From: a virus
Direction: 5' to 3' (one strand)
Virus record (IMG/VR): IMGVR_UViG_3300045581_000040
Span: 1 to 36,220 of that record
Length of the DNA: 36,220 bases
A program made the translations under genes and the position numbers. This document shows, piece after piece, positions 322-36,104 of this stretch. Every line of letters begins with the position of its first letter. Position 1 is the first letter of the stretch. The notes under the pieces are model-generated. The model had not been told where the DNA came from and searched no databases. It saw only the letters and a list, made by a program, of their open reading frames with translations.

Positions 322-588
322 ATGATACCTAAGTTTAAGAACAGAGCAGCCTGCGATGGCACAGATTTAGATATGTGGTTTCTAGAGAGAGACTTTAGTT
401 ATAACCACCTACTAAAAAGAATATGCAATGGCTGCCCAGCAAAAGCAGAATGTTTTGAGTATGCTTTATATAATAATGTTATAGGGTTTTGGGCAGGCAC
501 TACTTATCAACAGCGTAAGTTAATACGCAAACGAAACAATATAATTGCAAAAGCAATTACACCAGAGATGGAGTTCAAACGTGCTTGA
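322..588 (+). CDS. whiB-like: WhiB-family iron-sulfur transcription regulator
   Basis: An 88-residue protein with the complete WhiB signature: C11, then C35-x2-C38-x5-C44 for a [4Fe-4S] cluster, followed by the turn GFWAG at 55-59 (family consensus G[VI]WGG) and a basic tail (RKLIRKRN) for DNA contact. WhiB-like proteins bind the primary sigma factor of actinobacteria and redirect transcription. Phage copies, such as TM4 WhiBTM4, are known to interfere with host WhiB proteins. The GGAGACTAG sequence immediately upstream serves as both Shine-Dalgarno and stop of the FmdB gene. This gene is the strongest host indicator in the window. The second glycine of the turn (WGG) is replaced here by alanine (WAG), a mild deviation. 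Confidence 0.92.
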   Translation: MIPKFKNRAACDGTDLDMWFLERDFSYNHLLKRICNGCPAKAECFEYALYNNVIGFWAGTTYQQRKLIRKRNNIIAKAITPEMEFKRA

Positions 589-27903: not shown

Positions 27904-29790
27904 CTATCCGTAATTCTCTTGCCATTGCGCTGCAAAGGCATCATCCAGATTAATAGTCAAACGCTTTTCTCGTTGCGCTCTGGTTGCCCATCTATTATTG
28001 GCATACCGTTGCATCTGAGCATTCTGTTGCATAAACTCACGACATCTTAAAACAGCAAACCATAAAGCCATCACACAGTCGGTCTTGCCTCTGGTATCAG
28101 GTTTCCAAGTTAGTAATTGTTGAACTAAAGCCTTAAGCCCTTCAGAGCCTTCAGTGCTTGGTAACTCAATAAGGTTGTCTCTCTGGAACTTGCCATCTCT
28201 GATTGTTCCAAAGAGCGTAGACATTCCTGCGACTCCAAAGTTGGTGTCCCACTTGTTCTTGCCTGTGAAATGCGAATTAAGTCTGACACCATACCCAGCA
28301 AGCCATTGCTGTAAATCGGAGTCAAGTGAATACGCCTTCTGGTGTGCGTTAATCTCAACTCGTAGTTCTTGCGGGCGATACCTTTGAACAAACTCTTCAA
28401 TTGCTTCCCTAATCTTTTGTGGTGTAGGTTCTGCCATATTCAGAACATCTAACACATAAATCTTACCGTCATCACGATTATAGGTTGCAACAACAAAAGC
28501 AGCATTACCTGCCATAGCAGGGTCAAATCCAATAACGGTATAACCCTCAACTTGACTTGGGTGTCCTGCTGCGCCTGGTCTCAAAGGACCACGCTTTCTC
28601 ATCCCATTTATAGAACCCTGAACAAGTTCAGCGGGAAAAATGGAATCTTCTGTTACATCTTCCTGCTGGTAAACTAATGCCCAGGTGGACGGGGTTACTT
28701 CTCCGCGTCTTCTGTGTAATGTCTTTCCATCCCATTTAGGATACAGTCCGTCAGCGTCTGGCGTATCGTCATCGCCATCCCAAGGAACGTCACTTTTAGC
28801 CCAAAGCGTTTCCCAGTCTTCGGGTTTTTCAGCGTACTTAAGAACCGCAGGCATACCCATATAAGTAAAAGGAGACTTACCCCCCGACCAATGCTTCGGG
28901 TCACGGAGTTCTTTGTATAAGTCTGTCGGCGCAATTCTCGTCCCTACTACTAGCAACTTACCATTTTTGCCAAGACGAGTGATAACTTCTTTTTGTAGCC
29001 AGTTGATTTGCTTCTCATACTCGTGAGCATTGGCTGTAGTTATACAGTCGTCCAAAATTATTAGGTCGGCACGGGCACCGTAAATTTGACCACCCATACC
29101 GAGTGCCTGAATAGTCGGGTCCTTCTCGGATGAATTACGGGCATCGCTTCCCAAGTAGACGGTATCAACACGCCAGGTGTCGGAGTCTTCTTTCCATCCC
29201 CCTTCTGGTCCAAATGTTGTTTGCAACTTTAACCAGCGCGGGTGGCTTAACCTTTGTTTGATTGCGTACACGAACTCTCGTGCTTTGATTAACGTCTTAG
29301 AAACTACGATGATTCTAACGTTGGGATTTAACGCGATGCGGTAGGTAGAGTAGTTCACCGTGATAACGGTGGACTTAGCGTGCTCAGGCGGCACATTCAC
29401 AAGAAGGCGGTTAGGGTCGCCTTTCTCGTAAATCATACTAGGGTGGAGCCAACTAGGCTCCCGTCCCTCTAACAGGTCAATCCAATCTTGGTGATGGGGA
29501 AAGACCTTCTGTTCTAAAAACATCTCACTAAACTGTGGAAAACTAATTTCGTCCCTAGAAATACCCAAAGCGGTCAAGGACCGCTCTTTAGCGTCTTCCT
29601 TGGCTTGGGCTAGGTCAACGGCAAACTTCTTATCCCTCATCATCCAAATACGGATAGTGTCGGGTTGCTTGCCCACCTCAGCCATCGCTTTGTGGGGCGT
29701 CCAACCTTCAGAGACAAGGGCTATTACTTTAGCCTTTGCTGCTGCCATAGCCTCGGTCCGAGGGTTGTTATTGCCCTTCTGAAAAGTCAC
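27904..29790 (-). CDS. terL: Large terminase subunit (ATPase and nuclease)
   Basis: A 628-residue motor. The N-terminus (about 20-60) looks like a helix-turn-helix of the phage small-terminase kind (SEGWTPHKAMAEVGKQPDTI). The ATPase has a Walker A-like PPEHAKST (134-141), a Walker B LIILDD (243-248) and a coupling VGTR (282-285). The RNase H-like nuclease has GFDPAMAG with D423, VEIN with E479 and D571 in DCVMALW. All acidic residues expected for activity are present. I keep GTG at 29790 with weak GGGA spacing; ATG at residue 15 is possible. Fusion of the HTH to the large subunit may explain the missing separate small terminase. Confidence 0.9.
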   Translation of the reverse strand: MTFQKGNNNPRTEAMAAAKAKVIALVSEGWTPHKAMAEVGKQPDTIRIWMMRDKKFAVDLAQAKEDAKERSLTALGISRDEISFPQFSEMFLEQKVFPHHQDWIDLLEGREPSWLHPSMIYEKGDPNRLLVNVPPEHAKSTVITVNYSTYRIALNPNVRIIVVSKTLIKAREFVYAIKQRLSHPRWLKLQTTFGPEGGWKEDSDTWRVDTVYLGSDARNSSEKDPTIQALGMGGQIYGARADLIILDDCITTANAHEYEKQINWLQKEVITRLGKNGKLLVVGTRIAPTDLYKELRDPKHWSGGKSPFTYMGMPAVLKYAEKPEDWETLWAKSDVPWDGDDDTPDADGLYPKWDGKTLHRRRGEVTPSTWALVYQQEDVTEDSIFPAELVQGSINGMRKRGPLRPGAAGHPSQVEGYTVIGFDPAMAGNAAFVVATYNRDDGKIYVLDVLNMAEPTPQKIREAIEEFVQRYRPQELRVEINAHQKAYSLDSDLQQWLAGYGVRLNSHFTGKNKWDTNFGVAGMSTLFGTIRDGKFQRDNLIELPSTEGSEGLKALVQQLLTWKPDTRGKTDCVMALWFAVLRCREFMQQNAQMQRYANNRWATRAQREKRLTINLDDAFAAQWQENYG

Positions 29791-29798
29791 AGAACTGT
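29789..29798. promoter_or_regulatory. Operator-like dyad 1
   Basis: ACAGAACTGT is a palindrome except for its two central bases. It spans the GTG start of the terminase and lies just downstream of a TATAGT -10-like element on the minus strand (29810-29815). The same 10-base dyad returns in reverse complement at 29854-29863, and with one mismatch at 30139-30148. Confidence 0.45.
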
Positions 29799-29853
29799 CC
29801 CATCTACAAACTATACTGATAGTTATTACAGACAGTTAGAAACAGACAGCAAT

Positions 29854-29863
29854 ACAGTTCTGT
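29854..29863. promoter_or_regulatory. Operator-like dyad 2
   Basis: ACAGTTCTGT is the exact reverse complement of dyad 1, 65 bases away (start to start). It lies between the candidate late promoter's hairpins and the terminase. Two identical dyads at this spacing are typical of a repressor that binds cooperatively. Confidence 0.45.
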
Positions 29864-29912
29864 AACGCAAGCCTTAAAAGGCTTGCTACTATCAGTGGGC
29901 ACTTTGTGCCCC

Positions 29913-29942
29913 TATATAGTATTAATCCGTTCAAACAGCCAA
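29913..29942 (-). promoter_or_regulatory. Candidate sigma70-type promoter for the late operon
   Basis: On the minus strand TTGGCT (29942-29937) and TATATA (29918-29913) are separated by 18 bases, four of six matches each to -35 and -10. A transcript starting near 29906 would begin at the GGGCAC hairpin (29911-29897) and then pass the GCAAGCC hairpin and two dyads before the terminase. A second -10-like TATAGT at 29815-29810 has no matching -35. Confidence 0.35.
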
Positions 29943-30138
29943 TCCGAACGGTTTATAACCAAACTGTTATGTAAATCACAGAATAGACTATACCAAAATA
30001 GGACATAATAGGACAGGGCATAGGGGCTGTTTAGTTTGTACGGGAAAATCTTTTTCAGAGATACTCATACAGTTTAGCCCGCCATTAATCAGTGGCGGGT
30101 CAAAGTAGACTCAGTTCTATCAGTCACAGGCTACAGAT

Positions 30139-30148
30139 ACAGTTCTGA
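30139..30148. promoter_or_regulatory. Operator-like dyad 3 (one mismatch)
   Basis: ACAGTTCTGA differs from dyad 2 only in its last base. It is on the early side of the control region, 156 bases before the first plus-strand gene. A weaker relative, TCAGTTCTAT, is at 30111-30120. Confidence 0.35.
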
Positions 30149-30210
30149 GGGGACTGATACAGGAGTCAGTCTGCCTCGCTTCTAATAACACAGATTCTGG
30201 GCGCTCGGTC

Positions 30211-30216
30211 TATAAA
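30211..30216 (+). promoter_or_regulatory. Weak -10-like element for the rightward operon
   Basis: TATAAA (within TATAAATAAT) lies about 90 bases before the first rightward gene, and the resulting leader would contain the TGCGAACC hairpin at 30241-30259. No good -35 hexamer is seen at 17 bases upstream. If it is a promoter it may need an activator, and the phage WhiB is one candidate. Confidence 0.25.
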
Positions 30217-30304
30217 TAATGTTCTATATCTGGGTGGCTATGCGAACCGAAGGTTCGCAGGTCTGAGTAGTGTAGATAGAAATCCTATCTGCAGAAAGGT
30301 TCCT

Positions 30305-30709
30305 ATGTCAGAGAGCAATGGCATCTCCGTAACAAATATGTGCTACCAATGCCAAGCACTTTATGACCTTTGTCCCGACTGCCTTGAACTCAAGGATGCT
30401 AGGGATATAGATATTGCCCATCAGATAGTTGATGAGGGCAATCTCCAATACCGTTTTGTCTGGTCCCAAACAGAGACTACGGTGTCCAATCACGACTGGG
30501 TTGGTTCAATCACCAAACTTCGCCGTCCTGCCATCCTCGCAGATGGTAGTAAGGTTGAAGAGCGGTATGAATTCCTTGACCCAATCTCACTACTTGCAGA
30601 CCGCATCATTGACCTTGAGACTAGTCTCACCGTCACCGATAATGAGACAGTCTGCGAGCAGTGCCACTATCTTCACAACAAGGCAATTGCCTGCCCAAAC
30701 TGCAACTAG
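30305..30709 (+). CDS. Double zinc-knuckle protein
   Basis: A 134-residue protein with CxxC pairs at both ends: C13/C16 and C23/C26 (CYQC...CPDC), and C117/C120 and C130/C133 (CEQC...CPNC). The middle 80 residues look beta-rich and basic in part (DWVGSITKLRRPAILADGSK). Two zinc ribbons bracketing a beta body suggest a nucleic-acid or protein-binding factor, possibly regulatory, as this is the first gene of the rightward operon. AGAAAGGTTCCT precedes the ATG. I do not recognise a family. Confidence 0.7.
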   Translation: MSESNGISVTNMCYQCQALYDLCPDCLELKDARDIDIAHQIVDEGNLQYRFVWSQTETTVSNHDWVGSITKLRRPAILADGSKVEERYEFLDPISLLADRIIDLETSLTVTDNETVCEQCHYLHNKAIACPNCN

Positions 30710-31908: not shown

Positions 31909-32000
31909 ATGAAGTTATCTTTCCACACATCCCAACAGGAATCACCTGGCTATACCTCATTGCAATTGGATATTGCATATACAGATGGGCTACTAAATGA
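31896..32000 (+). CDS. 34-residue membrane peptide preceding the secreted transglycosylase
   Basis: A GTG at 31896 with AGGAG 8 bases upstream opens a frame to TGA at 31998-32000. It overlaps the upstream gene by 13 bases and joins the transglycosylase by ATGA. The peptide begins MEQVNEVIFPHIPTGITW and ends LYLIAIGYCIYRWATK, a single hydrophobic helix with a basic end. This would be a tiny inner-membrane peptide. Its position suits a holin-like, pinholin-like or signal-assisting role for the enzyme, which is inference. Confidence 0.55.
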   Translation: MEQVNEVIFPHIPTGITWLYLIAIGYCIYRWATK

Positions 32001-32431
32001 AAAAGAAATTAGCAGCGCTTGTCAGTTGGCTATTGACACTTTCGTCAGCCATATTTCCCATACAATCGTGGGCAGATACGGTCAAGCACAAGTGGATAGA
32101 CGGCGACGAGTCAGTGCAGAAGCACCGCAAGGAAATCAGATGGACGAAATCCTTGAGCAGATACTATGCGAAGGCTCTAATCTCAGCACAGTATGAGCAA
32201 TGGGATAACTCAGAATTCCGTGCGCTTAAAAAACTATGGGGTAAAGAATCTGCTTGGGACCATACAGCAGACAACCCTAAGTCATCAGCCTTCGGCATAC
32301 CACAGTTGTTAGGACTAGCACCTAACACGCCTGCGCCCGAGCAGATTGCTCGTGGCTTGGCTTATATTGAACATCGCTATGGCAAACCATCAGTTGCTTG
32401 GGCACACTGGCGCAAGCATAAATGGTATTAG
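31997..32431 (+). CDS. Secreted SLT-type lytic transglycosylase
   Basis: A 144-residue protein with a signal peptide at 1-26 (MKKKLAALVSWLLTLSSAIF, then PIQSWA and a likely cut after SWA). The C-terminal catalytic domain has the SLT-like motif WGKESAWDH with catalytic E84, and the NPKSSAFGIPQLL motif (93-105), followed by GLAYIEHRYGKPSVAWAHW. It should cut glycan strands outside the membrane. It belongs to the rightward operon, not the late lysis module, so its job may be distinct: wall remodelling during infection, a second lysis path or superinfection exclusion. The ATGA link to a tiny membrane peptide is notable. Confidence 0.85.
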   Translation: MKKKLAALVSWLLTLSSAIFPIQSWADTVKHKWIDGDESVQKHRKEIRWTKSLSRYYAKALISAQYEQWDNSEFRALKKLWGKESAWDHTADNPKSSAFGIPQLLGLAPNTPAPEQIARGLAYIEHRYGKPSVAWAHWRKHKWY

Positions 32432-35336: not shown

Positions 35337-36104
35337 ATGTCACGCGTAGAAATAGAGCGAGATAGATACGGGCGTCCAATGGTACGCCCAGCCAAAGGCG
35401 GTAAGGCAGAAGCCTATACACGGGCTACTACAATAGCCAACAGTCTTGATGACCCGTCAGCATTAACTGCTTGGAAGATGCGTATGGCAGCCATTGGCTT
35501 GTCAGTCAGAAGCGATTTGCTATTAGCAATTAACGCAGCACAAGATGACAAAATGGCTATCAATAAGTTTATTGATGATGCTATGGAAGTAGCAGGCGCT
35601 AGCAAGGCAGCGACTATTGGTACAGCACTGCATACATTTGCAGAGAAACTAGATTTGGGACAGGAAATCCACGTCCCGAACGAGTGGGCAGGGGACTTAA
35701 TTGCCTACGAGCAAGCAACAAAACAACTAAATAAAATCTTTATAGAACAATTCTGCGTGCTAGATAAATATAAAATTGCTGGCACACCAGACAGAGTTGT
35801 TGAATATAAAGGTGAAAGATTCATTGCAGATATAAAGACAGGTCGGATAGACCATCCCAATAACATAGCAATTCAGTTAGCAATCTATGCTAACGGGTTG
35901 CCTTATGATATTGAGACGGCAACCCGTGGTAAATGGGGAGACGTTAACAAAGAAAAAGCAATCATCATTCATCTACCTGCAGGTACAGGCTTGTGCAAAC
36001 TAGTCTGGATTGACATAGCAGAGGGATGGAAGGGTGTACAATTTGCAATGAAGGTCAGACAGTGGCGAGACAAGAAAGGTCTAGTCACTCCATTCACAGA
36101 GTAA
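35337..36104 (+). CDS. RecB/Cas4-like PD-(D/E)XK exonuclease
   Basis: A 255-residue protein with the full RecB-family nuclease signature: G95-T-A-L-H99 (motif I histidine), IAGTPDRV with D152 (motif II), IADIKTG with D165 and K167 (motif III), and IQLAIYANG with Q180 and Y184 (QxxxY motif). It lacks the four Cys of Cas4 iron-sulfur nucleases, so a plain RecB-like exonuclease is more likely. It may process DNA ends for recombination-dependent replication or degrade host DNA. Strong AAAGGAG site and a two-hairpin leader precede it; the next gene starts after AAGGAGAA. Confidence 0.8.
   Translation: MSRVEIERDRYGRPMVRPAKGGKAEAYTRATTIANSLDDPSALTAWKMRMAAIGLSVRSDLLLAINAAQDDKMAINKFIDDAMEVAGASKAATIGTALHTFAEKLDLGQEIHVPNEWAGDLIAYEQATKQLNKIFIEQFCVLDKYKIAGTPDRVVEYKGERFIADIKTGRIDHPNNIAIQLAIYANGLPYDIETATRGKWGDVNKEKAIIIHLPAGTGLCKLVWIDIAEGWKGVQFAMKVRQWRDKKGLVTPFTE

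Follow-up and report, generated by a model that had tools for sequence, protein, structure and literature searches.

A candidate late-gene switch in a phage of lake actinobacteria, with a conserved promoter box and a leader kept as structure

In phages of the T4 and SPO1 type, a phage-encoded sigma factor directs transcription from middle or late promoters with a non-host consensus. The locus described here resembles them by analogy only, as it has a single promoter with dyad half-sites and a different sigma-like protein. For two cultured phages of “Ca. Planktophila,” LanE43-AprE7 and LanE43-AprF5, sigma and WhiB genes were reported, WhiB being an actinophage marker, and the part of that article drawn on here makes no mention of a promoter or a leader (PMC10202952). 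At the RNA level, the put RNAs of HK022 are ca. 70 nt long and form two stem-loops; putL comes just after the promoter, with its first paired base at nucleotide 3 (PMC9378689). The ompA and papA mRNAs carry 5′-terminal stem-loops; pyrophosphohydrolase and RNase E need a single-stranded 5′ end, and mRNA is stabilized by secondary structure there (PMC3997798). We found no account in the literature of early-to-late gene switching in phages of the acI actinobacteria, the hosts in this case, which are numerically dominant in freshwaters.

The whole stretch of DNA analyzed (the window) is a virus contig of 36,220 bases. The virus is related to the two cultured “Ca. Planktophila” phages and, more distantly, to the Streptomyces podoviruses of the Beephvirinae; within the phage collection, the former are its nearest cultured relatives, matching at 68% identity along one third of a 7-kb query. 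The structural genes run leftward from TerL down to ca. position 1535, while the early genes start at 30305, point rightward, and resume at the left end of the record. The two main units diverge where the earlier note had placed their division, with TerL starting at 29790. Since relatives of near-complete length measure 37.5 to 42 kb, the record is probably missing a piece between 36220 and 1. For comparison, we used 289 loci with a TerL start, retrieved from IMG/VR by TerL searches and one pattern search; the latter selects for the promoter box described below, and the former select on protein only, yet the box was seen there too. No prophage or host genome with this TerL was found, nor was any tRNA found in the window, and ARAGORN did not confirm a tRNA-like segment that two relatives (L201 and L381) have upstream of TerL. 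No separate small terminase subunit was identified among the families searched. Residues 14 to 50 of TerL show a weak helix-turn-helix likeness (HTH_23, E 0.003, below the cut-off) that recalls small terminase subunits. The early unit encodes a RecB/Cas4-like exonuclease (35337-36104) and a transglycosylase-like protein (31997-32431), both on the plus strand.

Between the two units (29791-30304), we counted eight non-overlapping perfect inverted repeats (arms of at least 6 bp, loops of 3 to 14), against a mean of 1.2 (SD 1.0) in dinucleotide shuffles, none of 500 reaching eight. Two of them had arms of at least 8 bp, which was equaled in 2 of the 500 shuffles, and no other 514-bp segment of the record held as many repeats. 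The clustering of hairpins is genuine, and the region has a function. The five perfect inverted repeats listed in the earlier note (29867-29886, 29897-29911, 29927-29951, 30078-30099, and 30241-30259) were all recovered, together with its tandem copies (ATAGGACA at 29998-30005 and 30008-30015). Comparison of relatives indicates that the repeats are of differing kinds, i.e., a DNA dyad, hairpins downstream of it, a lineage-specific early-side stem, and a non-conserved hairpin. The last of these was kept nowhere beyond the loci given in Table 1. Of the two further roles allowed for, a packaging site gained real support from the terminal repeats of Streptomyces relatives, located in the same region, and a replication origin found no separate evidence. 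The cumulative GC skew has its minimum at ca. 31 kb, but it tracks gene orientation, and for this reason it was dropped as evidence for an origin.

Table 1. Features of the window, with positions, strand, and basis
Feature	Position	Strand	Basis or remark
WhiB-like regulator, end of the early unit	322-588	+	Pfam Whib, E 2e-12
TerL, first gene of the late unit	27904-29790	-	PHROG 38, E 3e-68; Terminase_6C, E 4e-6
Distal late leader, CTGT/CTAT/ACAG word array	29791-29866	-	Little structure
SL2, GCAAGCCTTTTAAGGCTTGC	29867-29886	-	Best stem takes 69 distinct forms over 138 leaders
SL1, GGGCACAAAGTGCCC, predicted 5′ end	29897-29911	-	Unrelated stems substitute in relatives
Predicted late start, +1 (within ca. 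2 nt)	29912	-	Inferred from place relative to box and SL1
Late promoter box core, TTTGAACGGATTAATA	29920-29935	-	One copy in the record
Promoter dyad, CCGTTC-N13-GAACGG	29927-29951	-	Half-sites co-vary (GTTC/GAAC or GTCC/GGAC)
CRP/GlxR-like dyad, TGTGATTTACATAACA	29965-29980	-	9/10 matches, center at ca. -60
Tandem TGTCCTA repeats, 10-bp register	29999-30015	-	Conserved in close relatives
Conserved block, GATTTTCCCGTACA	30037-30050	-	Comparison of relatives
Zone inferred to contain the physical genome terminus	30050-30190	.	Beephvirinae homology and contig-end peak
Early-side hairpin, CCCGCC...GGCGGG	30078-30099	+	Lineage-specific version of the early-side stem
Terminus-associated element, GACCC...TTAA	30084-30101	-	89/110 relatives, 279 to 316 nt from TerL
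Hairpin TGCGAACCGAAGGTTCGCA, not conserved	30241-30259	+	Among the fetched loci, matched in just three besides the window's own locus copy

Upstream of TerL, the relatives share a box with the consensus GTYC-N13-GRAC-[GA]G[GA]TTA (138 distinct leaders), found within 260 nt of the gene in 268 of the 289 TerL-bearing loci; several of the 21 loci that lack it are contig ends or carry insertions. Over 90 distinct sequences, GTTCG followed by TTGAAC, G, and [AG]TTA is near invariant. The half-sites were concordant in all 138 distinct leaders (GTTC/GAAC in 125 and GTCC/GGAC in 13), and the spacer of the GTTC/GAAC leaders is 13, or 14 in a single case, a cultured isolate. Switching between both types needs seven changes on the TerL tree, a number that recombination of the region could reduce to fewer true events. 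There is about one copy per genome, second matches mostly having three mismatches. The inverted repeat at 29927-29951 is the dyad of this promoter, upstream of the predicted start site, and not a hairpin of the transcript. The actinobacterial LexA consensus is GAAC-N4-GTTC, and a LexA/SOS box was rejected, given that the halves of the dyad come in reverse order with a spacer of 13. A late promoter at the box, and the structured leader that follows it, are well supported by comparison among relatives. The first step of the switch would be this one highly conserved box per genome, directly upstream of TerL and with no consensus sigma-70 promoter at its position, and the 28-kb late operon would be transcribed leftward from this single promoter, with a start near 29912.

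The box is probably read by the virus's own sigma-like protein, as suggested by the co-occurrence of gene and box, which extends to the Streptomyces phages. In the relatives, this protein has 207 to 228 residues and a weak similarity to sigma region 4. Because TIGR02943 matched no genome, the gene was searched with a profile built from the phage proteins themselves, and it appeared in 29 of 31 near-complete relatives, missing only from this truncated record and G017. It usually precedes WhiB by some hundreds of bases, and WhiB was found in 27 of the 31 as its neighbor; judging from most relatives, the expected place of the sigma-like gene in the window is just upstream of WhiB, beyond the left end of the record. 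The region 4 helix-turn-helix was recognized by Sigma70_r4 in two of six members (best E, 6e-7) and by Foldseek, which aligned the model to region 4 of 3hug (TM by target, 0.71). The top PDB matches of the AlphaFold2 model (mean pLDDT, 79; pTM, 0.55) were whole sigma factors with a probability of 0.99, but with an E of 0.02 and a TM of ca. 0.3, and there was no Pfam region 2 match in the protein. A homologue was present in four of four Streptomyces Beephvirinae phages (E 1e-19 to 1e-22), and the same four have TGTCC-N13-NGAC[AG]GGTATA upstream of TerL. In a second step, the sigma-like protein, expressed from the early operon, would bring RNA polymerase to the box, possibly helped by WhiB and by a CRP-family activator of the host at a phased dyad. 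A dyad such as that of the box is atypical of sites that a sigma factor recognizes directly, and its partner may be a dimeric activator.

Dyads matching the CRP/GlxR operator TGTGA-N6-TCACA lie upstream of the box, with 10/10 matches in several relatives and at least 8/10 in 62 of 135 leaders. Relative to the inferred start, they are centered at -60.5 (42 leaders), -56.5 (11), -49.5 (7), and -70.5 (2), so that three of the four positions are about one helical turn apart. These sites, together with a dyad symmetry whose co-varying halves suit a dimer, would fit a scheme in which a host sigma factor serves the box, assisted by a host CRP-family protein and by a dimeric phage activator at GTYC-N13-GRAC, while the sigma-like protein has a different role. 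We consider this rather unlikely, given that the box has no consensus -35/-10, that about half of the leaders have no CRP-like dyad whereas the box is near universal, and that the Streptomyces phages, too, have the sigma-like gene together with the box. In three loci (L107, L111, and L166), the place of the missing CRP-like dyad upstream of the late box can be taken by an A-tract palindrome, for example GGCAAAAAGATTTTTTGCC.

Downstream of the box, the comparative data agree with the earlier proposal that the GGGCAC hairpin (SL1) coincides with the 5′ end predicted for the leftward late transcript and that a second hairpin (SL2) comes after it. Both stems, 29897-29911 and 29867-29886, have conserved counterparts in relatives with the compensatory changes that had been suggested as a check. 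In place of SL1, relatives carry stems such as GGGACTA/TAGTCCC, GGCAA/TTGCC, and TAAAGATTA/TAATCTTTA. The 69 distinct SL2 and 55 SL1 candidates obtained from 138 leaders illustrate this diversity and do not test it, as they were chosen by best complementarity. Folding of the 70 nt that directly follow the box in relatives gave a mean z of -2.9 in sense and -3.5 in antisense against shuffles, compared with -0.9 for the distal half of the leader and -0.6 for the 60 nt upstream of the box. With the antisense z as strong, the sense RNA is favored only by position and by a slight excess of G-U at the stem edges (28 G-U versus 14 A-C).

Covariation was assessed in alignments not built from structure. 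Among class B leaders, both sides changed in 8/8 pairs (62 cells, 90% paired), with the outer-pair columns picked by eye; their covariation score was 0.475, against 0.154 in shuffles that ignore relatedness and at most 0.136 when slid. For class A, the arms of SL2, placed by flanking anchors, were 96% paired, against 76% in shuffles that likewise ignore relatedness and <50% when slid. RNAalifold found no consensus structure and no pairs in the MAFFT alignment of class A because the 3′ arms were misaligned, and for this reason class A is based on the anchored comparison of arms. The topology also varies, from two separate hairpins in class A to one nested hairpin in class B, where the pairing partner of the 5′ end lies 3′ of SL2 (the observed score was reached in 1/1,000 permutations). 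The first paired base of SL1 in class A is usually 16 to 18 nt after the GAAC half-site, which is the predicted +1, and some class B leaders have no stable SL1. The two cultured “Ca. Planktophila” phages share the order of late elements, the sigma-like protein, WhiB, and the layout with two leader hairpins; they differ in a GTTC-N14-GAAC dyad (spacer longer by one base), in unrelated stems, and in CRP-like sites located far upstream. Comparison indicates that SL1 and SL2 are kept as structures through wholesale compensatory change, with the predicted 5′ end usually paired. No intrinsic terminator (a stem followed by a T run) was found at SL1 or SL2, and the Rfam curated covariance models gave no match at gathering or at E values up to 1. 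In the leaders of L119, L122, and L189, the internal loop is GA/GA rather than the TC/TC of other class B leaders, as if inverted.

Protection of the late mRNA would be the simplest function of such a leader, considering the need of pyrophosphohydrolase and RNase E for single-stranded 5′ ends, the stabilizing effect of 5′ structure, and the finding that in the different clades the first paired base falls close to the predicted +1. In this third step, the RNA would open with a helix in which its first bases are buried, ahead of the second hairpin, and the sealed 5′ end would block pyrophosphohydrolase and 5′-dependent nucleases, resulting in a stable long late mRNA. What is shared with ompA and papA is the helix at the very 5′ end; unlike in those mRNAs, the leader is phage-wide, conserved by compensatory change, and provided with a second hairpin, and its stabilizing effect is putative. 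The layout alone, in which a phage promoter is followed at once by two stem-loops within ca. 70 nt, is also that of put, and the leader could be an antitermination RNA, one that modifies RNA polymerase and lets it read through the 28-kb late operon. The presence of two helices within the initial 50 to 60 nt, ahead of a very long operon, and a conserved hairpin that also opens the early side would agree with it. However, put needs specific contacts, whereas here the stem sequences, loops, and topology vary freely between clades, and no conserved unpaired motif was found in the leaders, which makes this role quite unlikely. Although the hairpins fall within the predicted 122-nt leader of TerL, it is highly improbable that they chiefly control its translation, as they are at the 5′ end and 76 nt of weakly structured sequence precede the GTG start.

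The four Beephvirinae (FlowerPower, Manuel, Stella, and Immanuel3) resemble the window in having a divergent region before TerL, CRP-like dyads, a GTCC-N13-NGAC box, an SL2-like hairpin downstream, an element like GACCC...TTAA, and the homologous sigma-like gene. They differ in a TATA-rich box, GC-rich stems, and a weaker leader z (-0.9 to -1.8). Terminal repeats are established in them, unlike in the family of the window: their exact repeats measure 253, 276, 263, and 275 bp, with the TerL-side boundary 371 to 404 nt upstream of TerL, and a 253-bp terminal repeat has been reported (PMC9753666). Ca. 40 bp inside this boundary they have [GT]ACCC[CG][AG]GGGTTGTTAA, which resembles the GACCC...TTAA of the window's family. 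The contig ends of relatives peak 330 to 400 nt upstream of TerL (30120-30190), with 12 found versus ca. 3 expected. Part of this peak may be assembly breakage, because two circular complete assemblies cut in the region (G030 and G031) have overlaps of exactly 127 bp, an assembler word length; breaks between co-occurring strains may be what it reflects. No direct terminal repeats were seen in the window's family or at the ends of this truncated record, and the repeated ends of G012 were rejected as such, a closed-circle assembly like those with the 127-bp overlap fitting best. By homology, the physical genome terminus likely adjoins the late promoter. The fourth step would place the terminase cut site and the end of the direct terminal repeat in the same intergenic block, so that the packaging signal, early start, and late start come together.

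The palindromes themselves could be a packaging or terminase-binding site, conserved as DNA and not as RNA. They adjoin TerL, their fold strength is equal on both strands, and the contig-end peak and the 253- to 276-bp repeats of the Streptomyces relatives belong to the same intergenic region. We regard this as very unlikely, considering that the Beephvirinae repeat boundary is across the promoter from SL1 and SL2, that the stems keep no sequence, as a protein reading duplex DNA would need, and that the peak is open to the assembly artifact described above.

In our best reading, this is the late-gene switch of an actinophage, the place from which a virus of lake actinobacteria chiefly turns on its structural genes. 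We give a probability of roughly two in three to a single late promoter served by a phage sigma factor, with a 5′-sealed leader that protects a 28-kb mRNA, beside the genome terminus; of its inferred parts, the sigma link has the most support, followed by mRNA protection and then by the terminus. It is possible, if doubtful, that this represents a promoter class widespread in actinophages, combining two co-varying half-sites 13 bp apart that a divergent phage sigma-like protein would recognize, a sequence-free structured leader that would act on RNA polymerase or on mRNA decay, and the end of a terminal repeat. The promoter, the likely sigma factor, and the covariation-supported leader open two cultured systems, the Planktophila and Streptomyces phages, to experiment, and the box can be used as a marker of late operons in unannotated viral contigs. 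With a 5′-sealed leader retained despite repeated rewriting of its sequence, nature offers an uncommonly clear test of how 5′ ends bear on the survival of mRNA in Actinobacteria.

Short repeated words were also found around the promoter. The intergenic region shows a 4.3-fold enrichment of CTGT/ACAG words, with the genome maximum at 29778-30027, and a CTGT/CTAT/ACAG array (29791-30170), conserved in relatives, flanks the promoter on both sides. TGTCC repeats are common to the window, as tandem TGTCCTA, and to the terminal repeat of FlowerPower (L333, positions 1 to 253), which has seven TGTCC on one strand and zero GGACA; the late promoter of FlowerPower has TGTCC as its left half as well. On the early side, the counterpart of 30078-30099 in relatives is GGGGTC-N5-GACCCC, with a mean MFE z of -2.3 over 74 relatives.
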